DNA from: Candidatus Saccharimonadota bacterium
Lineage (GTDB): Bacteria > Patescibacteriota > Saccharimonadia > Saccharimonadales > UBA4665
Length of the DNA stretch: 64,000 nucleotides
Assembly (NCBI GenBank): GCA_003133385.1
Contig: PKXF01000008.1
Location: 93,270 to 157,269, forward strand
Direction: 5' to 3'
Shown: positions 4,983 to 55,873 of the stretch, piece by piece
Layout: every line of letters begins with the position of its first letter
How positions within the stretch are numbered: the stretch's first letter is position 1
Position numbers and translations under genes: made by a program
Notes under the pieces: model-generated
Told to the model about the DNA's origin: nothing
Databases searched by the model: none
The model's input: only the letters and a program-made list of their open reading frames with translations

Positions 4983-5059
4983 TGGTACACCCGATAGGAT
5001 TCGAACCTACGACCTTTGGCTCCGCAAGCCAACGCTCTATCCAGCTGAGCTACGGGTGC
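4983..5059 (-). tRNA. tRNA-Arg (anticodon GCG)
   Basis: A full 77-nt cloverleaf on the minus strand, with the 3' CCA encoded. It has a 7-bp acceptor stem with a G1-U72 wobble, T8/A9, D-stem GCTC/GAGC with the loop AGCTGGATA that carries the arginine identity A20, anticodon stem TTGGC/GCCAA, loop TTGCGGA and T-loop TTCGAAT. The anticodon is GCG, which reads CGC and CGU. Most bacteria use ACG here, edited to ICG by TadA, so an unmodified G34 isoacceptor is unusual. Confidence 0.93.
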
Positions 5060-23721: not shown

Positions 23722-24786
23722 CTACGTTTGCTCCATCAGGCTTTTAAAGGCGGTAAAAAGGTGGCGGGCGTCATGCGGCCCGGGCCCGGCTTCGGGGTGG
23801 TACTGCACGCTAAAAGCCGGGTACAGCGTGCTTCTTAGTCCCTCAACGACGTTATCGTTAAGATTGCGGTGGGTTACAACTGCGTCCTTTAGGCTGCTTT
23901 CAATGACGGCAAAGTTATGGTTTTGGCTGGTAATTTCCACGACGTTGGTGCTTAGATCCTGGACCGGATGATTTCCGCCGTGATGGCCGAACGGCATTTT
24001 TACTGTTTTGCCGCCAAGTGCTGTTGCTAGCAACTGATGGCCGAGGCATATACCGAAAATTGGGGCGTGACCCAGCAGTTTTCGTATTGTCTGCACGCCA
24101 TAGTTAACGGTTTGGGGATCGCCTGGACCGTTGCTTAAAAATATTCCGTTTGGACGGGAGGCCAGAACCTGCTCACTGGTAGAGTCGGCCGGCAGCACAG
24201 TCACCGTGGCGAAGGTTGCCAGCTGGCTGATAATTGAAGATTTAATGCCGTAATCCAGGGCGGTCACCCGTAGTTTGCCGGAGCCGACGCTGTAAGCCTT
24301 TTTAGTTGAGACGGCTTTTACTAGATCAATACCGGCTGTGCCGGGTTCTTTTTTTGCGGCGAGCTGAAGCTCACGCAAACTGGCTGAACCGAAAGCGCCA
24401 GGCAAGGCGCCTTGTTCTCTGATATGCCGGGTCAGTTTCCGGGTATCAATGCCGGTAATAGCTGCAACATTAGTCCGTTTCAGCCACGTGTCGAGTGACT
24501 TTGTGGCCCGGTAATTACTGTACGCTTCATGATAGTCCCTGACGATCACGCCCCGGGCAAAGATAGCCCGGCTCTCATTATCGGCATTATTAATTCCGTA
24601 ATTGCCGATGTGAGGGTAGGTGAAAGTTACTATCTGGCCGGCATAACTTGGGTCGGACAATATTTCCTGGTAACCCGTGGGAGCCGTATGAAAGACGACC
24701 TCGCCGCTGCTTATAGATTTTTCGCTGCCGAAGACATAGCCTTCAAAAACCGTCCCATCTTGTAATACCAGAGCGCCCGGGGTCAT
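23722..24786 (-). CDS. carA: Carbamoyl-phosphate synthase small (glutaminase) subunit
   Basis: A 354-residue CarA. N-terminal [17 protein letters not shown] and [28 protein letters not shown] define the small-subunit domain. The class I glutaminase follows with nucleophile Cys in [12 protein letters not shown] and the His/Glu pair in [13 protein letters not shown]. It supplies ammonia from glutamine to CarB. The ATG at 24786 overlaps the stop of a 26-codon leader ORF (ATGA), and an intrinsic terminator lies 13-39 bases upstream, so expression is probably attenuated. Confidence 0.97.
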
Positions 24787-24863
24787 AATCCGTACTCCAA
24801 AAAAATAAGACTCCCAAATGGGAGTAACGAAACTCGATGAAGGTATTGGACGACCCGGGACAT
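24783..24863 (-). CDS. Putative carA leader peptide (26 aa) with two Arg codons
   Basis: ATG 24863 lies 10 bases after a TATAAT -10 box. The ORF encodes MSRVVQYLHRVSLLPFG followed by nine more residues and ends in TGA overlapping the carA ATG. Arg codons are CGG (codon 3) and CGA (codon 10). The attenuator terminator lies inside the ORF. With CGA in the A site, a stalled ribosome would reach about base 24824 and clip the 5' arm of the terminator. That would favour read-through when Arg is scarce; this reading is inference. No Shine-Dalgarno is seen, as expected for a near-leaderless message. Confidence 0.5.
   Translation of the reverse strand: MSRVVQYLHRVSLLPFGSLIFLEYGL
24799..24825 (-). terminator. 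Intrinsic terminator in the carA leader (attenuator)
   Basis: On the minus strand ACTCCC-ATTT-GGGAGT (24825-24810) forms a 6-bp stem with a tetraloop. CTTA and then seven T (24805-24799) follow. It lies between the promoter and carA, so it can only act as an attenuator for carAB. A competing GAGT/ACTC pairing is possible just upstream, but it is short. Confidence 0.65.
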
Positions 24864-24873
24864 GTAAGCCCTG

Positions 24874-24902
24874 ATTATAGCTTCGTTATAGAAGCGGGGC
24901 AA
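24874..24902 (-). promoter_or_regulatory. carAB promoter
   Basis: On the minus strand TTGCCC (24902-24897), 17-base spacer, TATAAT (24879-24874). Transcription would start 2-4 bases before the leader-peptide ATG at 24863. The -35 box overlaps the left arm of the inverted repeat at 24899-24925. Confidence 0.7.
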
Positions 24903-24925
24903 GCTGGCTACCCGCAACAGCTTGC
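24899..24925. promoter_or_regulatory. Inverted-repeat operator between the carA and argH promoters
   Basis: GCAAGCTG-N11-CAGCTTGC is a perfect 8-bp inverted repeat centred at 24912. Its two arms overlap the two divergent -35 boxes symmetrically (24897-24902 and 24922-24927). Part of the symmetry comes from the TTGC of each -35, but four further bases per arm also match. It is a candidate site for a dimeric regulator that controls both operons at once. It does not resemble the classical ArgR box, and no regulator gene lies nearby. Confidence 0.5.
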
Positions 24926-24950
24926 ATATTTGCTTAGAAGGTAGTATTAT
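24922..24950 (+). promoter_or_regulatory. argHFJBDC promoter
   Basis: TTGCAT (24922-24927), 17-base spacer, TATTAT (24945-24950), then 10 bases to the leader-peptide ATG at 24961. The mRNA would have only about 3 bases before the leader start codon. It mirrors the carAB promoter in spacing and distance to its leader ORF. Confidence 0.7.
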
Positions 24951-24960
24951 ACACACCGTT

Positions 24961-25029
24961 ATGAACAATCAGACTTCGATTATTATCGTTCGCCGCAGCT
25001 CACGTATATCCGGGAGTTGTCCTTCGTAA
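24961..25029 (+). CDS. Arginine leader peptide of the argH operon (22 aa)
   Basis: ATG 24961 to TAA 25029. The peptide is MNNQTSIIIVRRSSRISGS plus three residues, with tandem Arg codons CGC CGC (24991-24996) and CGT (25003-25005). Base 24996 to 25001 (CAGCTC) can pair with 25014-25019 (GAGTTG). A ribosome stalled at the Arg pair would cover this segment and free 25012-25021 to form the antiterminator. A ribosome reaching the stop codon covers 25012-25021, allowing the terminator. This is the logic of his/trp-type attenuation. The codons match the tRNA-Arg(GCG) in this window. Confidence 0.7.
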   Translation: MNNQTSIIIVRRSSRISGSCPS

Positions 25030-25063
25030 TTCTTTGAAAAAATCAAGGCTCCAGACAGCTCCC
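25012..25063 (+). promoter_or_regulatory. Antiterminator stem of the argH leader
   Basis: GGGAGTTGTC (25012-25021) pairs with GACAGCTCCC (25054-25063) over 10 bp with one G-U. The 3' arm contains the whole 5' arm of the terminator (25057-25063), so the two structures exclude each other. The 32-base loop includes the leader stop codon. Confidence 0.6.
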
Positions 25064-25087
25064 ATTGGTACAACAGGGAGCTTTTTT
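25057..25087 (+). terminator. Intrinsic terminator in the argH leader (attenuator)
   Basis: AGCTCCC (25057-25063) pairs with GGGAGCT (25076-25082). The loop can add a TTG/CAA inner stem, and T25082-T25087 give a run of six T. It sits 48 bases before the argH ATG, downstream of the leader peptide. The perfect hairpin AAAAGCCTGA-GGT-TCAGGCTTTT follows at 25094-25116 and may structure the region in front of the argH ribosome site. Confidence 0.75.
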
Positions 25088-25134
25088 AATACCAAAAGCC
25101 TGAGGTTCAGGCTTTTAGACTGGAGAATATAACT

Positions 25135-26322
25135 ATGAGTACAAAACTCTGGCAACCCGCCACTTTAAGCAATTTACATCCGCTGATTGAGTCCTACACT
25201 GTCGGTTCTGACAAGCAAGCTGACCAGCAGCTATTGGGCTATGACATCATAGCTACTAAGGCTCATGTCGCGATGCTACACGCCATTGGGATTTTAACCA
25301 AAACCGAACTGAAGCAATTAACTTCCGCCCTAGATGATTTACATGATCTATGGCTGGACGGCTCATTTATCGTTGGAGAACATGACGAAGACAGCCACAG
25401 CGCTATTGAGGCTTATCTGGTCGATCGTCTCGGCGACGTAGGCAAAAAGGTTCATAGCGGCCGTAGCCGAAATGACCAATGCCTGGTCATGGTTCGGCTC
25501 TATCTTAAAGACACGCTGGAGCAGCTGACTGCTCTAGCAATGCAGGTGGCATCTTCATACGCCAAGGCTGCCAAGGCGTCCGGCGATACGCCAATGCCTG
25601 GCTATACCCATATGCAAAAGGCCATGCCGACTAGTGTCAGTACCTGGCTTGATTCATTCGCTGCCGGCTTTAGCGATATGAGCGACCTCCTAGTAGCAAC
25701 TCGCAACATTATTGACCAAAACCCACTTGGCTCAGCGGCCGGGTTTGGCGTTTCGTTGCCACTTGATAGACAGCATACGACTAAGAGCCTTGGCTTTAAG
25801 AAGCTGCAAAGCAATCCAATGTACTGTGGTCTATCGAGAGGACTTTTTGAGCTTATGGCCGTACAAGCCTTAAACCCGATCATGGCTCTGGCCGGCAAGT
25901 TTGCTCAGGACATGTTGCTGTTTACAACCCAAGAGTTTAACTTTTTCAGCCTGCCGGACAATTTGACTACCGGCTCGTCAATCATGCCTCACAAACATAA
26001 CTATGACCTCTTCGAGATTATGAGAGGCCAGGCCAATGCTTTCGGCGGCTACATCCAACAGCTGCAAGCCGTAGTCAGCGGTACAGGCAGCGGCTATAAC
26101 AGGGACATACAATTGACCAAAGCTATACTGCTAGCTTCTATGGAAACCGCTAAAAGCACCTTAGAAGTCCTATTACTAGCCGTACCACAGATCCAGTTGC
26201 ACCACGAGGTGCTATATGCGGCGATGACTGATGAAATGCAGAGTGTTAGCAAGGTCAATAAGCTTGTCGAACAGGGCATGCCCTTTAGGGATGCCTACGG
26301 CTTGGTCAAAAGCCAGCTGTAA
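25135..26322 (+). CDS. argH: Argininosuccinate lyase, short at the C terminus
   Basis: A 395-residue member of the fumarase/aspartase superfamily that splits argininosuccinate into arginine and fumarate. N-terminal conserved HEDSHSAIEAYL and HSGRSRNDQ are present, and the signature loop GSSIMPHKHNYDLFE carries the catalytic Ser region. Typical ArgH is about 460 residues; this one stops after FRDAYGLVKSQL, so most of the C-terminal ASL domain is missing. TGGAG lies 10-14 bases before ATG 25135. It is the first structural gene after the attenuator. Confidence 0.92.
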   Translation: MSTKLWQPATLSNLHPLIESYTVGSDKQADQQLLGYDIIATKAHVAMLHAIGILTKTELKQLTSALDDLHDLWLDGSFIVGEHDEDSHSAIEAYLVDRLGDVGKKVHSGRSRNDQCLVMVRLYLKDTLEQLTALAMQVASSYAKAAKASGDTPMPGYTHMQKAMPTSVSTWLDSFAAGFSDMSDLLVATRNIIDQNPLGSAAGFGVSLPLDRQHTTKSLGFKKLQSNPMYCGLSRGLFELMAVQALNPIMALAGKFAQDMLLFTTQEFNFFSLPDNLTTGSSIMPHKHNYDLFEIMRGQANAFGGYIQQLQAVVSGTGSGYNRDIQLTKAILLASMETAKSTLEVLLLAVPQIQLHHEVLYAAMTDEMQSVSKVNKLVEQGMPFRDAYGLVKSQL

Positions 26323-26478: not shown

Positions 26479-27381
26479 ATGAACAGCCTTCTCTCGATTT
26501 CTGACTTATCTGCCGACCAAATCAAGCAGTTGGTGGACAAAGCAATTGCCCTGAAAGCGGAAATCAAGAACAAAGGCGGGCACGATAAACTGCCGTTAAA
26601 GAATAAAAGCATGGCCATGATTTTCGACAAATCCAGCCTAAGGACCCGGCTGTCATTTGAAATCGGAATGACCCAGCTGGGCGGCCACGCCGTTTACTTG
26701 GCGCCCGACGATATAAAGTTAGGCAAGCGGGAGACCGTTCACGACACCGCCAAAGTTATCAGTAGCATGGCGGATATTATCATCGCCCGGGTTACTTCCC
26801 ACGAGGATGTCAGCGATCTTGCACGCTACTCTACGGTCCCTGTAATTAACGCTATGACCGATGTCGAGCACCCCTGCCAGGTATTGGCAGACCTTATGAC
26901 CATTTATGAAAAATTCGGCACACTTACAGGCCTAAAGCTTGCCTATTTAGGTGACGCCGATGCTAACGTTATTTACTCAATTGCCTTGGCTGCCGAGATA
27001 CTTAACTTAGAGCTCGCCATCGCCGCGCCTAAAGGTTACGAAATGGCCCCAGCAGCTAGGAAGCAGGCGCCAAGCGTTAAGCATTACAACGACCCAGCTA
27101 AAGCCGTTAAGGGTGCACATGTAGTTATTACCGACACCTGGGTTAGCATGGGCAAAGAAGCTGAAAGCCAAGAGCGACTAAAGAAGCTAATGCCGTTCCA
27201 AGTCACAACCGATCTTATGGCTAAGGCCGATCCAAAGGCGATATTTTTACACTGCTTACCGGCTTACCGCGGTAAAGAAATGACCACCGAAGTCATAGAC
27301 GGGCCCCAGTCAGCCGCTTTTGAAGAAGCTGAAAACCGGCTGCACATGCAAAAAGCTGTGGTCCTGGAGCTTTTAACATGA
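26479..27381 (+). CDS. argF: Ornithine carbamoyltransferase
   Basis: A 300-residue OTCase making citrulline from ornithine and carbamoyl phosphate. The carbamoyl-phosphate motif is SSLRTR (52-57), HPCQ is at 131-134, the ornithine-binding DTWVSMGKE (SMG 223-225) follows, and the catalytic HCLP is at 258-261. Full length. AAGGAG lies 8-13 bases before ATG 26479. Its stop overlaps the argJ start (ATGA). Confidence 0.96.
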   Translation: MNSLLSISDLSADQIKQLVDKAIALKAEIKNKGGHDKLPLKNKSMAMIFDKSSLRTRLSFEIGMTQLGGHAVYLAPDDIKLGKRETVHDTAKVISSMADIIIARVTSHEDVSDLARYSTVPVINAMTDVEHPCQVLADLMTIYEKFGTLTGLKLAYLGDADANVIYSIALAAEILNLELAIAAPKGYEMAPAARKQAPSVKHYNDPAKAVKGAHVVITDTWVSMGKEAESQERLKKLMPFQVTTDLMAKADPKAIFLHCLPAYRGKEMTTEVIDGPQSAAFEEAENRLHMQKAVVLELLT

Positions 27382-28544
27382 AGCGCCTAAGTGGCGGCTT
27401 CAGTAATATAGCTGGCTTTTCCACGCTTGGTAAGCACATTGGTATAAAACATAGTGGCAAGGATTTTGCTGTACTATTCTGCGACAAAGTCTGCACGGCT
27501 GCGGCCGTATACACCAGTAATCAAATCCAAGGTGCGCCAATAATAGTTGATAAACAGCACCTTGCCAATAATATGGCCCAGGCTGTCGTCGTAAATAGTG
27601 GTAACGCCAACGTAGCCACTGGCGAACAAGGTATAAAAAACGCTGAGGAAACCGCTGCAATAGCGGCAGCCGAACTCGGCATCAAGGCCGATGACGTACT
27701 TGTGTGCTCAACAGGTGTTATTGGTCCTCAACTGCCGATGGAAAAAATTAGAGATGGCGTTAAGGGTATAAAACAGGACTTAGGCACTAGCGATGATTTC
27801 GCAGAGGCCATATTAACGACTGATACCCGGAAGAAAGAAATTTGTGTAACCGCTGACGGTTTCACGATTGCCGGTTGCGCCAAAGGCTCGGGCATGATCG
27901 CGCCGGACATGGCCACAATGCTGGCATTTATCGCTACAGACGCCGATATTGCCGGTCCTGAGCTTACCAAACTATTGAAAAGCTGCGTAGCATCATCGTT
28001 CAATATGATGAGCGTTGACATGGACACCTCAACTTCCGATACAGTTATTGTGTTAGCAAGCGGCGCTATGAGCGTCGATATTGAACAATTCCAAGAAGCT
28101 TTGCTATATGTCTGCCAGGAACTTGCTAAAATGATTGCCCGTGATGGCGAAGGCGCGACCAAGCTTATAACCTGCGAAACCCGCGGCGCATCCAGTCAAA
28201 GCGATGCTAAGAAAGTTGCCAAATCGATCATAAACTCCAACCTGGTTAAGACTGCTATCTATGGCAATGACCCCAACTGGGGCCGCCTGATGATGGCTCT
28301 TGGTAATAGCCAAGCCGAGAAAATTGAACAGGATAAGATACAGATATGGATTAACCAAACGTCAATTGTGGACGGTGGCAAGGCGGCTGCTGACTATGAC
28401 ACCAAAAAGCTAAGCACTATACTAAGCTCCAGTCAGGAAATAGCAATCACGATTGATCTAAACCTGGGAAACTACGCTGCCGAAGCCTACGGTTGCGATA
28501 TGAGCGAAGACTATATAAAAATAAATGCTGAGTATACGACTTGA
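27378..28544 (+). CDS. argJ: Glutamate N-acetyltransferase / N-acetylglutamate synthase ArgJ
   Basis: A 388-residue ArgJ that moves the acetyl group from N-acetylornithine to glutamate. It is autocatalytically cut before the Thr of AKGSGMIAPDMATMLAF (T180), giving alpha and beta chains. N-terminal GFSTLGKHIGIKHSGKDFA and ASGN-like VVVNSGNANVATGE are present, and the C-terminal GNDPNWGRLMMALG is also visible. With ArgJ the pathway recycles acetate; whether it is also bifunctional with acetyl-CoA cannot be told. Start ATGA-overlaps argF. Confidence 0.95.
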   Translation: MKRLSGGFSNIAGFSTLGKHIGIKHSGKDFAVLFCDKVCTAAAVYTSNQIQGAPIIVDKQHLANNMAQAVVVNSGNANVATGEQGIKNAEETAAIAAAELGIKADDVLVCSTGVIGPQLPMEKIRDGVKGIKQDLGTSDDFAEAILTTDTRKKEICVTADGFTIAGCAKGSGMIAPDMATMLAFIATDADIAGPELTKLLKSCVASSFNMMSVDMDTSTSDTVIVLASGAMSVDIEQFQEALLYVCQELAKMIARDGEGATKLITCETRGASSQSDAKKVAKSIINSNLVKTAIYGNDPNWGRLMMALGNSQAEKIEQDKIQIWINQTSIVDGGKAAADYDTKKLSTILSSSQEIAITIDLNLGNYAAEAYGCDMSEDYIKINAEYTT

Positions 28545-28549
28545 AAAAT

Positions 28550-29383
28550 ATGAACGAAGCCGCCACAAAAGCCGAACTCCTACTCCAAGCACTCAAATAC
28601 ATTAAGAAATTTGAGGGCAAGATCATTGTTATCAAGTACGGCGGCAACGCTATGGAAAATGAGGAGCTTCAATCATCGGTGTTCCAAGACATTAGTATGC
28701 TGTCACGGCTCGGCTTGCAAATAGTTGTTGTGCACGGCGGCGGTCCTAAAATTGACGCCGAACTTGCCAAGCGCGGCATTAAAAAGAAAACTGTTCATGG
28801 CCTGCGGGTTACTGACGATGAAACCCTAAAGGTGGTCGTCAAAACACTGAAGTCCGTCAACAAGGATTGCGTTGAGGGCCTTAAAAAAGTTGGTGTCAGG
28901 GCCAGGGATTATACGTCTGGCATGTTCCTTACCGAGGCTAAGGACGCTCCCGGCCTAGGCCATGTCGGCGAGATTATAAAGGTTGATTCAATGTCGCTAC
29001 TCAGACCGCTAGCCTATGGTATCGTCCCGGTTATATCTTGCATGGGCAAAGATGCTGGGGGACAGATCCATAACATTAATGGCGATACGGCTGCTACAAA
29101 GCTTGCCGAAGCCCTCAAGGCCGAGAAACTAACCATACTGACAAATATTAACGGCGTGCTGGACTCGAAAGGCAAACGTATTTCGCATTTGAGCGTTAAA
29201 GATATTCCTAGGTATATTGAAAATGGCGTGATTCACGGCGGTATGATTCCAAAAGTCCGGGCATGTGCCGATGCCGTCACCCATGGCGTGAAAAAAGCCC
29301 ACTTGCTGGACGGCACCGTACCGCGGGCCCTGCTACTGGAAATATTTACAGCCGGCGGTATCGGAACGGAGATTGTGAAATGA
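28550..29383 (+). CDS. argB: Acetylglutamate kinase
   Basis: A member of the amino-acid kinase family that phosphorylates N-acetylglutamate. Landmarks are IIVIKYGGNAME, VVVHGGGPKIDAEL with HGLRVTD, ISCMGKDAGGQIHNINGDTAATKLAEAL, and LTNINGVLD. ATG 28550 gives 277 residues. A TTG at 28541 that overlaps the argJ stop (TTGA) would add three residues and is an alternative start; neither has a Shine-Dalgarno, so coupling to argJ translation is likely. Its stop overlaps the argD start. Confidence 0.95.
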   Translation: MNEAATKAELLLQALKYIKKFEGKIIVIKYGGNAMENEELQSSVFQDISMLSRLGLQIVVVHGGGPKIDAELAKRGIKKKTVHGLRVTDDETLKVVVKTLKSVNKDCVEGLKKVGVRARDYTSGMFLTEAKDAPGLGHVGEIIKVDSMSLLRPLAYGIVPVISCMGKDAGGQIHNINGDTAATKLAEALKAEKLTILTNINGVLDSKGKRISHLSVKDIPRYIENGVIHGGMIPKVRACADAVTHGVKKAHLLDGTVPRALLLEIFTAGGIGTEIVK

Positions 29384-30537
29384 GTGATGACCTGAAACTA
29401 CTCGATAGTACCCATATAATGCCAACTTACCCGCGACAGGACCTCATACTGGAGAAGGGAAGCGGCTGCTACGTTTTTGACAGTGACGGCAATAAATACC
29501 TAGACTTTTTTGGCGGTCTTGCTACCTGCAGCGTCGGTCATGCCAATCCCGAGGTAACCAAAGCTATAGCTGACCAGGCAAAAAAATTAATCAGCGTCTC
29601 CAATCTCTACTACACAGAACCACAAATCCGTCTGGCCAAAAAACTGTCTGATCTGTCTGGGCTCAAGAAGGTATTTTTCTCCCACAGCGGCGCCGATGCT
29701 AACGAAGCAGCTATTAAGCTAGCTAAAAAAGTTACCGGCAAGCAAGAATTCATAGCTTTTAGCGGTGCGTTTCATGGCCGTACAACAGGTAGTCTGGCCC
29801 TAACTTGGAACCAAAAAATTAAAGAGCCGTTTTTGCCTCTGGCGCCAGCAGCTAAATTTGCTACCTATAATGACACTGCCAGCCTGGAGTCACTTATAAA
29901 CGACAATACGGCTGCAGTTATTGTCGAGCCAATCCAAGGTGAGGCCGGGGTTGTAGTACCGGATAAAAACTTTCTAAGTGAAGTACGAAAAATATGTACC
30001 TTGCGCGGCATACTGATGATAGTTGATGAAGTACAAACCGGCATCGGCCGGACCGGTACGTTTTTTGCCTATAGTCGCAGTAATATAAAGCCTGATATAG
30101 TCACCATCGCCAAAGGCTTGGCTAACGGTGTACCAATCGGAGCATGCTTATCCGATTACAATCTTGAGTTAGGCGAGCATGGGTCAACGCTTGGAGGCAA
30201 TAGCCTGTCATGTGCTGCGGCCAACGCCACGATTGATTACATTGAGAAAAATAACCTAATGAGCAACGCCGAGGGTGTCGGCAACTACTTAATGGACCGA
30301 TTACGTGCATTGCAAGAAAGCACCCCCCTAATTAAGGACGTTCGCGGCCAAGGCCTGATGATTGGTATCGTGCTCCAAAAACCCGAAGCAGCCAAGATCG
30401 TTAAATTAACTTTGTCTGACGGTCTGCTATGTAATAATGCTGCTCCTAACGTGGTTCGGCTTCTGCCGCCGCTGATTGCTACAAAAGAGCAGGCCGATGA
30501 GTGCTTGAGGATATTAAGTAAGGCGATGCAGCCGTGA
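29380..30537 (+). CDS. argD: Acetylornithine aminotransferase
   Basis: A 385-residue class III PLP aminotransferase converting N-acetylglutamate semialdehyde to N-acetylornithine. The PLP-phosphate site is FSHSGADANEAAIKLA, the Asp of DEVQTGIGRTG (216-226) contacts PLP, and the Schiff-base Lys is K245 in TIAKGLANGVPIGA. The start is ATG 29380, overlapping the argB stop (ATGA). A longer open frame upstream lies within argB and is not used. Confidence 0.94.
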   Translation: MSDDLKLLDSTHIMPTYPRQDLILEKGSGCYVFDSDGNKYLDFFGGLATCSVGHANPEVTKAIADQAKKLISVSNLYYTEPQIRLAKKLSDLSGLKKVFFSHSGADANEAAIKLAKKVTGKQEFIAFSGAFHGRTTGSLALTWNQKIKEPFLPLAPAAKFATYNDTASLESLINDNTAAVIVEPIQGEAGVVVPDKNFLSEVRKICTLRGILMIVDEVQTGIGRTGTFFAYSRSNIKPDIVTIAKGLANGVPIGACLSDYNLELGEHGSTLGGNSLSCAAANATIDYIEKNNLMSNAEGVGNYLMDRLRALQESTPLIKDVRGQGLMIGIVLQKPEAAKIVKLTLSDGLLCNNAAPNVVRLLPPLIATKEQADECLRILSKAMQP

Positions 30538-31511
30538 AATCCGTAGGTATAATCGGTGCCAGCGGTTTCACTGGACACGAACTGCTCAAGCTACTAAATG
30601 CACACGAACTAGTAGATCTTAAAGTTATGAATAGCCGGAACTACGCCGGCAAAAAAGTGAGTAGTTTATATAATGACTTTGAGGGAGATGACGTCTACAC
30701 AGGTTACTCGTTCGATGAGGTTAATGCGTTCAATTTAGACCTTATATTCTTAGCTTTGCCGCATGCTAAATCCATGGATACCATAAAGGAATTAGATACG
30801 ACTAAAACCAAACTCATAGACCTGAGCGCCGATTACCGTTTTAAAGACCCTGAGGTGTATGAAAAAATCTACGGCCGGGCTTCGCTAGCGACGGAGCACA
30901 CTTGGGTCTACGGTTTGCCTGAGCTGTTTAAGACAGAAATACAAAATGCTAAGGCCGTTGCCAATCCCGGCTGTTACGCCGCAGCTTCAATCCTGGCCGC
31001 CTATCCAATCCAAGATGAGGCAGCCCATATTGTATTTGATTGCAAAAGCGGTTGGTCAGGCGCCGGCCGTGACAGCGACTATGCCAAAAATCCTGGCTTG
31101 CTTAAAGATAATCTTATTGCCTATAAACTCACCAAGCACCGGCATAAATATGAGATTGAACAGTTTGTTAAAACGCCGATCAGTTTTACTCCCCATGTCT
31201 TTGATACGTTTGAGGGAATGATGTGTACCGCCCACGTCCTGCTTAAAAATGGTGCTAACAGCGACGAAATTATGAAGCGTTACCAAGATTTTTATAAAGA
31301 CTCGGCCTTTACGCGCGTCAGCCAAGCCATACCCGATGTAAGTCAAACCCAAAAAACCAACTATTGCGATATTGGCGGTTTTGAAATAGACGAAAACAAC
31401 CAATTGGTTATAGTATCGACGCTAGATAATCTATGGAAGGGAGCTGCCGGACAGGCAGTCCAAAACATGAATCTTATGCTCGGTCTACCGGAAACAGAGG
31501 GACTGATCTAA
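30534..31511 (+). CDS. argC: N-acetyl-gamma-glutamyl-phosphate reductase
   Basis: A 325-residue NADPH-dependent reductase. The Rossmann motif is VGIIGASGFTGHELLKLL at the N terminus, and the catalytic Cys is C147 in ANPGCYAAAS. HRHKYEIEQ and PHVFDTFEGMMCTAH follow, as in the family. It starts with GTG 30534, overlapping the argD stop (GTGA), so it is translated by coupling. It is the last biosynthetic gene before argS; argG is not in the cluster. Confidence 0.95.
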   Translation: MKSVGIIGASGFTGHELLKLLNAHELVDLKVMNSRNYAGKKVSSLYNDFEGDDVYTGYSFDEVNAFNLDLIFLALPHAKSMDTIKELDTTKTKLIDLSADYRFKDPEVYEKIYGRASLATEHTWVYGLPELFKTEIQNAKAVANPGCYAAASILAAYPIQDEAAHIVFDCKSGWSGAGRDSDYAKNPGLLKDNLIAYKLTKHRHKYEIEQFVKTPISFTPHVFDTFEGMMCTAHVLLKNGANSDEIMKRYQDFYKDSAFTRVSQAIPDVSQTQKTNYCDIGGFEIDENNQLVIVSTLDNLWKGAAGQAVQNMNLMLGLPETEGLI

Positions 31512-31530: not shown

Positions 31531-33219
31531 ATGAAGAGTATATTGGAGCAGCGGGTTGTATCAGCTTGCCAGGAGCTGTTCAATGTGGAGGCAGCCGTTA
31601 CGCTTAGCCGGCCGCAGGAGCAGTTCGGAGACTACACGACGAATGTGGCACTGAGACTGGCCAAGCAATTAGGTAAAAATCCACATGAGGTTGCTGAGAC
31701 GCTTGCCGCCAAGCTGCGCGAAACCCTCAGTGAGCATGTCAGCCAAGTTACCATTGCCGGGCCCGGCTTTATTAATCTTCATCTAAACGACCCTTCGCTT
31801 CAAAGCGCACTTCAAGACAAACCCGCGAAGTCACTTCAAGGGCAATCAATCGTTGCCGAATATTCGGACCCCAATCCTTTCAAAGTCCTCCATGCCGGAC
31901 ATCTTTATACAACGATCACCGGTGATGCCATAGCCCGTTTGCTGGAAGCGGCTGGAGCGACGGTCCATAGAATTAATTATGGCGGTGATGTCGGCCTGCA
32001 CGTTGGTAAAACAATGTGGGCAATTATTAATTCTTTGGGCGGCGAACTGCCTGAAAAACTTGCAGAAGTTGACGCTACTAACCGTCCCGAGTGGCTAAGC
32101 GAACGTTACGTGGAAGGCAATACCGCTTACGAACAGGACGAAAAAGCTAAAGATGAGATAGCCAGGAGTAATAAGCGGGTCTACGAAGTGCACGCTAAGG
32201 AAGATCATGAATCGCCGTTTGCCCAAATTTATTGGACCTGCCGGGGATGGAGCTACGACGGCTTCCACGAGCTATACAAACAATTGCAAGTTACGGACTT
32301 TGAGCGCTATATAGCTGAGAGTGAAGTAACGCCGATCGGTATCGAGATGGCTAAAAAAGGACTGGAGGAGGGCGTGCTGGCCCGTTCCGACGGCGCGGTA
32401 GTGTTCGCTGGCGAACCACATGGTTTGCACACCAGGGTATTCTTAAATTCCGAGGGTCTTCCCACCTATGAAGCCAAAGAACTTGGTCTGGCAGCTCTCA
32501 AATGGCGAGATTATAACTTCGATCAGGGGATCATTATTACAGCTAACGACATCGTCGAGTATATGAAGGTTGTGTTGAAAGCTTTGGAGCATTTTTATCC
32601 CGAAGTCGTGGCCCGCAGCAAGCATATTACGCACGGCATTATTAAATTACCCGGTGGCCAAAAAATGAGCAGCCGCAAAGGTAACATATTGCGTGCCCAG
32701 GACATACTGGAGATAGCCGATAAGGCCAATCAAGCTCTCAATAATCAAAACAACCACGAAACGGTACTTGGCGCCGTTAAATACGCTTTTCTTAAAAACC
32801 GTATTGGCGGAGACATTATCTATGACCCGGAGCAATCTGTAAGCCTGGAAGGCAATAGCGGTCCTTATCTTCAGTATGCCCATGCTAGGGCCTGCTCGAT
32901 TTTGCATAAGGCAACCAAAGAGGGCAGTGAGGCGGAAGCCTTAAACGGCTCAATAAAGTTTGATCCCGAAGAACGCTCTTTAGTACGTAAAATAACTGAG
33001 TATGTCGAGGTATTCGATAATGCAGTCAACGAATTAATGCCGCATCACCTTTGCACTTACCTCTATGAATTAGCCCAAACATTTAATCATTTTTATGAGC
33101 ACAACCAGGTAGTTGGCGATACGCGTGAGGCTATTCGGCTAGTTTTAGTTCGTCGTTATGCGGACACATTGCAGGCTGGGCTGGACTTACTTGGTATAAC
33201 CGCACCTGATAGAATGTAA
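31531..33219 (+). CDS. argS: Arginyl-tRNA synthetase
   Basis: A 562-residue class I synthetase. It has an N-terminal Add-1-type domain (ECR end VTIAGPGFINLHLN), the HIGH-type motif NPFKVLHAGHLYTT (about 114-127), a KMSK-type loop GGQKMSSRKGN and a C-terminal helical anticodon domain with ArgRS-like ETREAIRLVLVRR. It starts 19 bases after argC and also has TACACT (31517-31522) 8 bases before its ATG. It can therefore be read both from the arg operon and as a leaderless message of its own. It charges the tRNA whose charging level would set the upstream attenuator. Confidence 0.96.
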   Translation: MKSILEQRVVSACQELFNVEAAVTLSRPQEQFGDYTTNVALRLAKQLGKNPHEVAETLAAKLRETLSEHVSQVTIAGPGFINLHLNDPSLQSALQDKPAKSLQGQSIVAEYSDPNPFKVLHAGHLYTTITGDAIARLLEAAGATVHRINYGGDVGLHVGKTMWAIINSLGGELPEKLAEVDATNRPEWLSERYVEGNTAYEQDEKAKDEIARSNKRVYEVHAKEDHESPFAQIYWTCRGWSYDGFHELYKQLQVTDFERYIAESEVTPIGIEMAKKGLEEGVLARSDGAVVFAGEPHGLHTRVFLNSEGLPTYEAKELGLAALKWRDYNFDQGIIITANDIVEYMKVVLKALEHFYPEVVARSKHITHGIIKLPGGQKMSSRKGNILRAQDILEIADKANQALNNQNNHETVLGAVKYAFLKNRIGGDIIYDPEQSVSLEGNSGPYLQYAHARACSILHKATKEGSEAEALNGSIKFDPEERSLVRKITEYVEVFDNAVNELMPHHLCTYLYELAQTFNHFYEHNQVVGDTREAIRLVLVRRYADTLQAGLDLLGITAPDRM

Positions 33220-54199: not shown

Positions 54200-55873
54200 A
54201 TGGAAAATACCAAACAACAGCTTGTTGACCGGATAAAGTCCGCTAGCAACGTATTGGTAACAGTTGGCCGTAACCCTTCTGTGGACGCCTTGTCGGCGCT
54301 ATTAGGCTTGACGCTAATTTTAAACAAACAAGGCAAGCACGCCGCGGCTGTTTTTAGCGGCGAGGTACCATCAACGATTGAGTTTTTACAGCCCGAGGAA
54401 ACAATCGAGAAGAATACCGACTCTTTACGCGACTTTATCATTGCCTTGGATAAGAACAAGGCCGACAAACTACGTTACAAAGTTGAAGATAACGTTGTAC
54501 GTATCTTCATAACTCCCTATAAAACTTCAATATCACAAGAAGATTTTGAGTTTAGTGAGGGTGATTTTAACATTGACGTCGTCATAGCTCTAGGCGTCCG
54601 CCAACAGGAAGATCTGGATGAAGCAATAACGGCCCACGGCCGTATCTTGCATGACGCTACGGTCACTACTATCAATATTGTGACTGACGCCGGCCTCGGG
54701 AGTATCAACTGGTCCGAACCACAGGCTAGCAGCCTGAGTGAACTGGTAACAGAGTTAGCTCAAGTACTTGGCGCCAATCTGTTTGATGAACAGATTGCAA
54801 CCGCACTACTGACTGGCATTGTGGCCGAAACCGATCGTTTCAGTAACGATAAAACCAGTTCAGTGACCATGAGTATGAGCGCAACGCTTATGAAAGCCGG
54901 TGCTAATCAGCAACTCGTCGCCAGCAAGCTTGAAGGGCAGCTTTCCGTACGTGCTCCAGATCCATCGGATAAATCTAATGCCAGCGACAGTAATTCCCAG
55001 GCTTCGGACGGTACAGCCCCTAAAGATGACGGTGCGATTAGGATTGATCACAATGACTCTTCAGACGATACTTCGTTAGCAACCCCAACTTCAGAACACT
55101 CAGAATCTGACCAGGCTCCTAGTCCGGACGGCGAAGAACAAACACCTGAAATTAAAGTTGATGAAGCAGGATCACCAACAACACCGGCCATCGGTGCTAC
55201 GACTAACTTATCTTCCGGGGCAAAACTAATTACAGAACCGCCAACGCTCGGCGGTACACTGACCGCTAACTCAGCCCAATCTGAGCTTGATCCGGTTACG
55301 GATCCGTTTAGCATGCCCCAGTCCGATGACAACCAATTGATTGAACATGACAAACCAGCCGATATTAAGGCACATGATCTGGCACCGCCATCAAGCTTGC
55401 CGCCCGCCCCAGCTGTTAGCTCTCCTCCTCAAGTACCGGTTACGCCGAGTTTAACGCCACCACCACCTAACTGGACGCCTCCGGCTTCACCGCCTACGCC
55501 GCCACCGACGCAGCCTTCCTCTAAACCGCCATCATTGCCGCTACCTCCAGACGGCACCGGCAACGGGGATGACGAAACACTTGCAGATATAGAGCACGCT
55601 GTGGCTAGTCCGCACGCGACTAGTCCTACAATTGATGCCGCCAGAGACGAAGTCAAACGGGCATATAACGACACTAGCGGAACCGATAGCGATGCATTGC
55701 CGGCTATTGACAGCCTTAACGCTCAGCCGCTCGGTGACGAGCTTCATCCGGGCAACCCAAGCCCGAAGACCGACTTGCCACAGACATCTCAACCTACGGA
55801 TTCTACGGCGCCACCCCCAGTACCACCCCCAATCCCATTCCAATTTGGCAATTCTTCGCAGCCACCCAAATAG
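54200..55873 (+). CDS. DHH-family (NrnA-like) protein with lost active site and Pro-rich tail
   Basis: A 557-residue protein from ATG 54200; the open frame extends upstream to 54068 but crosses the promoter. Residues 10-255 follow the NrnA layout, yet the metal sites are altered: the HxPDxD-type site reads GRNPSVDA (23-30), the DHH site reads NIVTDAG (159-165), and the later GIxxDTG reads GIVAETDRF. Residues 260-557 are low complexity, rich in Asp/Ser/Pro, with long poly-Pro stretches (PPPNWTPPASPPTPPP). Probably a non-catalytic scaffold or binding protein. Operon neighbour of truB. Confidence 0.75.
   Translation: MENTKQQLVDRIKSASNVLVTVGRNPSVDALSALLGLTLILNKQGKHAAAVFSGEVPSTIEFLQPEETIEKNTDSLRDFIIALDKNKADKLRYKVEDNVVRIFITPYKTSISQEDFEFSEGDFNIDVVIALGVRQQEDLDEAITAHGRILHDATVTTINIVTDAGLGSINWSEPQASSLSELVTELAQVLGANLFDEQIATALLTGIVAETDRFSNDKTSSVTMSMSATLMKAGANQQLVASKLEGQLSVRAPDPSDKSNASDSNSQASDGTAPKDDGAIRIDHNDSSDDTSLATPTSEHSESDQAPSPDGEEQTPEIKVDEAGSPTTPAIGATTNLSSGAKLITEPPTLGGTLTANSAQSELDPVTDPFSMPQSDDNQLIEHDKPADIKAHDLAPPSSLPPAPAVSSPPQVPVTPSLTPPPPNWTPPASPPTPPPTQPSSKPPSLPLPPDGTGNGDDETLADIEHAVASPHATSPTIDAARDEVKRAYNDTSGTDSDALPAIDSLNAQPLGDELHPGNPSPKTDLPQTSQPTDSTAPPPVPPPIPFQFGNSSQPPK

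Follow-up and report, generated by a model that had tools for sequence, protein, structure and literature searches.

Genomic context of the arginine operon

The window, a stretch of 64,000 nucleotides, belongs to a genome of 1.09 Mb in 14 contigs from the order Candidatus Saccharimonadales. Its forward strand carries an operon that, according to TIGR profile matches, has the order argH-argF-argJ-argB-argD-argC-argS. The first gene, argH, encodes argininosuccinate lyase (25135-26322; TIGR00838, 295 bits) and is preceded by the Shine-Dalgarno sequence GGAG at 25122-25125. Behind it lie argF for ornithine carbamoyltransferase (26479-27381; TIGR00658, 369 bits), argJ (27378-28544; TIGR00120, 415 bits), argB for acetylglutamate kinase (28541-29383; TIGR00761, 213 bits), argD for acetylornithine transaminase (29380-30537; TIGR00707, 474 bits) and argC (30534-31511; TIGR01850, 353 bits). 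The last clear operon member is argS, which encodes arginine-tRNA ligase (31531-33219; TIGR00456, 329 bits). The carA-carB genes are divergent from the arg operon and lie on the minus strand. An original prediction had placed an arginine-codon attenuator in front of argH; it was silent on the promoter, on argS as the closing gene and on the leader of the divergent carAB genes.

The carA leader (24783-24863, minus strand) has a promoter-like TATAAT and a leader ORF that overlaps the start of carA, with a terminator (24825-24810) inside this ORF. The layout resembles pyrBI-type control via ribosome-polymerase coupling. We set the carA leader aside as a second Arg attenuator: its ORF continues past the terminator, and the two Arg codons that it contains are not adjacent. 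In four genomes of the same family (L226, L228, L229 and L230, near 1480), a conserved hairpin like ATCGCTCCGAAAGGGGCGATTTT precedes carA, lying near the reading-frame start or within it.

Anatomy of the argH leader

Upstream of argH, a predicted sigma-70-type promoter consists of TTGCAT (24922-24927) and TATTAT (24945-24950), separated by a 17-nt spacer; most relatives have the same layout. Since these promoter-like hexamers lie upstream of the leader, the leader falls inside the predicted transcript, rather than the transcript starting beyond 25029. The leader ORF, MNNQTSIIIVRRSSRISGSCPS, occupies 24961-25029 and comprises 22 codons plus TAA, without a Shine-Dalgarno match. It contains the tandem Arg codons CGC CGC (24991-24996) and a third Arg codon, CGT (25003-25005). 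A tRNA-Arg gene with the anticodon GCG, at 4983-5059, would read CGC and CGT, the sole Arg codons of the leader.

All the pieces named in the original prediction are real and lie where it had placed them. Besides the ORF with its three Arg codons, these are a 1:2 hairpin (24996-25001, CAGCTC, with 25014-25019, GAGTTG; 6 bp including one G-U; -7.2 kcal/mol), an antiterminator or 2:3 stem (25012-25021, GGGAGTTGTC, with 25054-25063, GACAGCTCCC; 10 bp including one G-U; -17.7 kcal/mol), and an intrinsic terminator or 3:4 stem within 25057-25082 (25057-25063, AGCTCCC, with 25076-25082, GGGAGCT; -12.0 kcal/mol), followed by the U run TTTTTT at 25083-25088. Energies were computed with ViennaRNA. The pairings are mutually exclusive, the terminator is conserved, and the 1:2 hairpin, the pause or protector stem of classical attenuators, spans the regulatory codons. 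A second perfect 10-bp hairpin (AAAAGCCTGA/TCAGGCTTTT) occupies 25094-25116, between the terminator and the ribosome binding site of argH.

As a check against chance, the region 24787-25134 was shuffled 3,000 times with its dinucleotides preserved, and no ORF, antiterminator and terminator this strong arose together. Across both strands of the whole window there were seven leader-type candidates with any codons, and only one other candidate equalled the Arg-codon count; it lies within argH, on the minus strand near 25709. A simple terminator scan overlooked the argH-leader terminator, because the scan allows loops of up to 8 bases and this loop has 12; this is not evidence against the terminator.

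Searches for other regulators

The operon could instead be controlled by another sensor, such as an ArgR operator, a T-box or an arginine riboswitch, with the leader playing a secondary role. Other sensors do occur on argH, as T-box-like sequences (GGTACCGCG) were recognised by eye in two other Patescibacteria (L093 near 1400, L109 near 1440). At the site itself, however, no Rfam family reached its gathering score (one search returned only tRNAs, a second nothing); no known family covers the element, and no T-box was matched there. Nor did ArgR (PF01316, DNA-binding family) match in any of 17 genomes, namely the host and 16 others of its order that carry argH, while PF01316 was matched in 9 of 14 control genomes. 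We therefore rejected the class of ArgR-repressed operons, PF01316 having no match in 17 of 17 genomes, and likewise the T-box class, as Rfam gave no match at the site. Control by another sensor is accordingly regarded as highly improbable. The T-box-like argH leaders in the two other Patescibacteria suggest an exchange between T-box and peptide attenuator. In a further locus (L158, 1-200), a T-box-like tail (GGTGGTACCGCCCC), which scores below the Rfam gathering threshold, runs directly into a leader that has Arg codons and its own Shine-Dalgarno sequence; these are two sensors in a row, with argS two genes on.

Proposed mechanism

We consider it very likely that the argH leader acts as a ribosome-mediated transcription attenuator of the classical type, with charged tRNA-Arg as its signal and with both the arginine biosynthesis genes and argS under its control. 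The transcript would begin at the leader ATG or just upstream of it and, being nearly leaderless, would then be loaded with a ribosome. With ample Arg-tRNA, the ribosome would reach the stop codon (25027-25029) and cover arm 2 (25012-25021), so that the terminator (25057-25082) could form and the U run would end transcription. Under a shortage of Arg-tRNA, the ribosome would stall at CGC-CGC (24991-24996) and cover arm 1. Arm 2 would then be free to pair with arm 3 as the antiterminator, and the polymerase would continue into argH-F-J-B-D-C-S.

Ribosome masking in silico, with a footprint assumed to end 13 nt past the first nucleotide of the A-site codon, agreed with this scheme. Masked stalls at 24991 or 24994 made the antiterminator the best fold, with 10 of 10 pairs, whereas stalls one codon later, at CGT 25003 or at the stop codon gave the terminator with 7 of 7 pairs. 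Under this model, antitermination would occur only for stalls at the tandem CGC-CGC. The his/trp logic that had been proposed for the leader thus fits in the masking folds as far as the CGC-CGC pair is concerned, but it does not extend to the third Arg codon, where a stall would no longer favour the antiterminator. The full-length minimum-energy fold without a ribosome is the antiterminator, and hence the basal behaviour of the element would hinge on how fast the 1:2 hairpin forms and opens.

The likely mode of translation is indicated by the spacing of the promoter. Among the 37 leaders with a scored promoter, 26 have a -10 hexamer whose end lies 6-7 nt upstream of the leader ATG. This puts the transcription start at the ATG, and the transcript from which the leader is translated is thus probably leaderless; for the leader in the window, the distance from -10 to ATG is 10 nt. 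A Shine-Dalgarno match of at least 4 bases was present in 5 of 38 leaders, compared to 30 of 37 first structural genes. A leaderless start is not new in itself, since leaderless Cys-codon leader ORFs are known in mycobacteria. Work by Canestrari in 2020 reportedly dealt with such leaderless Cys-codon leader ORFs in mycobacteria.

Conservation and covariation in relatives

The same device, with Arg codons, is present in relatives upstream of argH, argG-argH or argS. The gene argH is rare in the order (17 of 393 genomes), and therefore the direct argH comparison is small. Leaders of relatives read SRRSSRISGS (L022), VRRTRIFESG (L021), NRRSYRITGS (L005), ARRSSRIHGS (L006), SRRTRI (L001) and GRRSSRIHGS (L094). 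Those of family f35 (L086, L087, L088 and L095) are of RRRR types, and two unplaced bacteria have SSRRLYGEGS and NSRRISGEGS (L036 and L047). The Arg pair is kept in all 25 of the RR leaders listed. In the Saccharimonadales cases, argH is only ~32-64% identical to that of the window, so that a recent shared ancestry does not suffice to explain why the leaders are nearly identical.

The stems have been kept as well, with compensatory changes. Among 7 leaders, 7 of the 10 antiterminator pairs showed double changes and 95.7% of the cells were paired; none of 500 shuffles reached any of five covariation measures in this set. A model-based alignment of 29 distinct sequences had double changes in 8 of 10 pairs (43 cells), with 95.8% of the cells paired. 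A structure-free MAFFT alignment of 20 sequences, 19 of which had not been used in building the model, gave 97.0% paired cells and 5 double-changed pairs. In slid controls, pairing dropped to 38-57% overall and to 44-56% on the MAFFT alignment. These covariation figures count sequences, not independent events. The relatives' pairing also backs the terminator. The 1:2 hairpin is the weakest of the three stems, with 82.5-83% of the cells paired in relatives and two of the six pairs often broken.

An alignment-free comparison, in which arms were swapped between leaders, points in the same direction. Native arms paired at -15.3 kcal/mol in 14 leaders, versus -11.1 (sd 0.8) kcal/mol for permuted arms, and at -18.0 versus -13.9 (sd 0.5) kcal/mol in 40 leaders; in both sets, 0 of 20,000 permutations did as well. 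Within f35 alone (5 leaders), native and permuted values were equal; the arms of this group differ too little for the swap to be informative.

The Arg codons of the leaders were CGT, CGC and CGA only (83 of 83), whereas 41% of those in the coding sequences of the window were CGG, AGA or AGG. This bias is partly circular, as CGY leaders were the basis of model R1, and it is not our main evidence.

Outside the order, many argH upstream regions from Peregrinibacteria, Levybacteria and archaea were scanned, and no clear Arg leader was seen in them. Marinimicrobia argG operons carry Arg-run leaders of RRRRSN type, for instance MLKLRRNNRQNRRRSNHLGGHR, with strong terminators (L014, L020, L030, L049, L051, L054 and L060 near 6550). 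These apparently form an independent family.

Arginine, proline and cysteine versions

A search with model R1 in 393 genomes of the order yielded 29 matches in 27 genomes. Among the 26 Arg leaders found in this way, 16 precede arginine biosynthesis genes or argS, and the operons behind Arg leaders include GNAT-argS, argB-like-argS and GNAT-argG-argH. The other ten precede genes with an unproven link to arginine (Asp/Glu-racemase-like, AspA/AstE-like plus GNAT, or GNAT), which counts against the attenuator reading. So does the host's own argG, located on another contig, which has no such leader upstream.

Some of these associations are worth recording in their own right. In five loci (L125, L134, L135, L137 and L157), an Arg leader lies upstream of an Asp/Glu-racemase-like gene without an obvious arginine link; this gene might be an unrecognised arginine enzyme. 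In L127/L149, L133/L150 and L136/L153, Arg leaders lie upstream of genes for GNAT and an AspA/AstE-like deacylase, and it is possible that this pair performs an unknown step in arginine/ornithine acyl metabolism.

The three weakest R1 matches have codons other than Arg (Pro, Pro and Cys), each of which fits the gene behind. The Cys-codon leader, MSNMITQKDCCSCKFLECGF, lies directly upstream of a cysteine synthase gene (L142, reverse strand). One Pro-codon leader, MIITRTIIAIIPPQP, precedes an amino-acid kinase gene and proS, and the other, MNHICQYTISVLPTPPLT, a gene for a tRNA-binding protein and proS. The host's own proS has an upstream Pro leader, MSKKLRFASVLPLPPTRA, and a terminator (G000:C8 near 54572-54730; L196 545-602, reverse strand); this is the genome's second-best R1 match, though weak (E 0.44). 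Outside this genome, Pro leaders occur in L143, L144 and L224. From one version to the next the scaffold is retained and the codons are those of the pathway behind, a pattern in favour of codon-specific stalling.

These data bear on two further explanations. The nascent leader peptide might act together with free arginine or ornithine to stall the ribosome in the exit tunnel, as for SpeFL or the fungal arginine attenuator peptide, rather than the ribosome responding to starvation for charged tRNA-Arg. The peptide motif RR-S-x-R-I-x-G-S/G-C is indeed strikingly conserved across the order. However, its conserved C-terminal residues overlie arm 2 of the antiterminator and co-vary with the RNA partner, which largely explains the motif. 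Moreover, f35 and Marinimicrobia leaders retain Arg runs, not the motif, while the Pro and Cys versions retain the scaffold with other codons upstream of cognate genes. For a starvation response, antitermination has to occur when the ribosome is at the tandem Arg codons, and this is what the geometry gives. We regard an arrest peptide as very unlikely.

The other explanation is that a short ORF and a terminator merely separate the divergent carAB and arg operons, without any regulation. The intergenic region is common to the two operons and also holds the unrelated second hairpin at 25094-25116, which would speak for a stray or constitutive arrangement. Yet conservation, covariation, the arm swap and the codon-gene match recur in many genomes with different neighbours, and we give this explanation next to no credence.

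The attenuator interpretation of the original prediction is therefore supported, although the device is not special to argH. Our results support a Saccharimonadales family that also serves argG-argH and argS operons and has Pro and Cys versions. On balance we lean slightly towards a broader picture. In these reduced, apparently ArgR-free Saccharimonadales, modular near-leaderless attenuators with exchangeable codons (Arg for arg genes and argS, Pro for proS, Cys for cysteine synthase) may be a main way of sensing amino acids and may partly exchange with T-boxes, the arginine attenuators of Marinimicrobia having arisen separately.

Comparison with known systems

Bacterial arginine genes are usually described as being under ArgR or T-box control. 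Such control concerns the same genes and the same signal, arginine or uncharged tRNA-Arg. The leader described here differs in that neither an ArgR match nor a T-box match at the site was obtained, and the ribosome on the leader would be the sensor.

If our interpretation is true, arginine, and in this order also proline, joins the amino acids sensed by classical attenuation, and the mechanism is placed in Patescibacteria, where little is known of regulation. Cultivated Saccharibacteria are epibionts on host bacteria (PMC10633639). The predicted direct read-out of arginine supply is relevant because of this lifestyle, and a short element with swappable codons lends itself to simple tests.

In the open-access literature we found no Arg-codon peptide attenuator for arginine biosynthesis genes or argS; subscription journals lay outside this search. 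The original prediction suggested that the device would be new or little described; its novelty is provisional. Attenuators for other amino acids have been described in Bacilli (PMC2965389).

Close parallels are the trp and his attenuators of Escherichia coli and the trp attenuators of Actinobacteria (PMC1262725). They share the short leader ORF in which cognate codons stand in tandem, the three stems 1:2, 2:3 and 3:4, an intrinsic terminator with U run, and a biosynthetic operon downstream. In contrast to these, the amino acid here is arginine, argS is part of the operon, the host is a member of the Saccharimonadales, and the ATG lies at or near the predicted start without a Shine-Dalgarno sequence.

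Arginine supply is also sensed by a pair of adjacent Arg codons in orf34, the leader ORF of Salmonella speF, for which Rho-dependent termination, decay by RNase G and exposure of a ribosome binding site are reported (PMC6386406). However, orf34 has 34 codons and a Shine-Dalgarno sequence, speF serves putrescine synthesis rather than being an arginine gene, and a switch between 2:3 and 3:4 pairing at an intrinsic terminator is not reported. We rejected the speF/orf34 (SpeFL) type for the arg leader, which has other downstream genes and an intrinsic terminator.

Mycobacterial Cys-codon leader ORFs (PMC4633059) are likewise short, leaderless or nearly so, and have a run of cognate codons with biosynthesis genes behind. 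They differ in their amino acid, cysteine, in their host group, Actinobacteria, and, as far as a citing paper describes them (PMC13236596), in using translation attenuation rather than a terminator and antiterminator. The uORFC-8-2 motif of cysS in Rhodobacterales (PMC8632094) shares tandem cognate codons, an attenuator-like structure and an aminoacyl-tRNA synthetase gene behind, but concerns cysteine and belongs to another phylum. Set beside these systems, the argH leader is well supported as a classical attenuator with a new specificity and in a new host group, forming part of a larger family.
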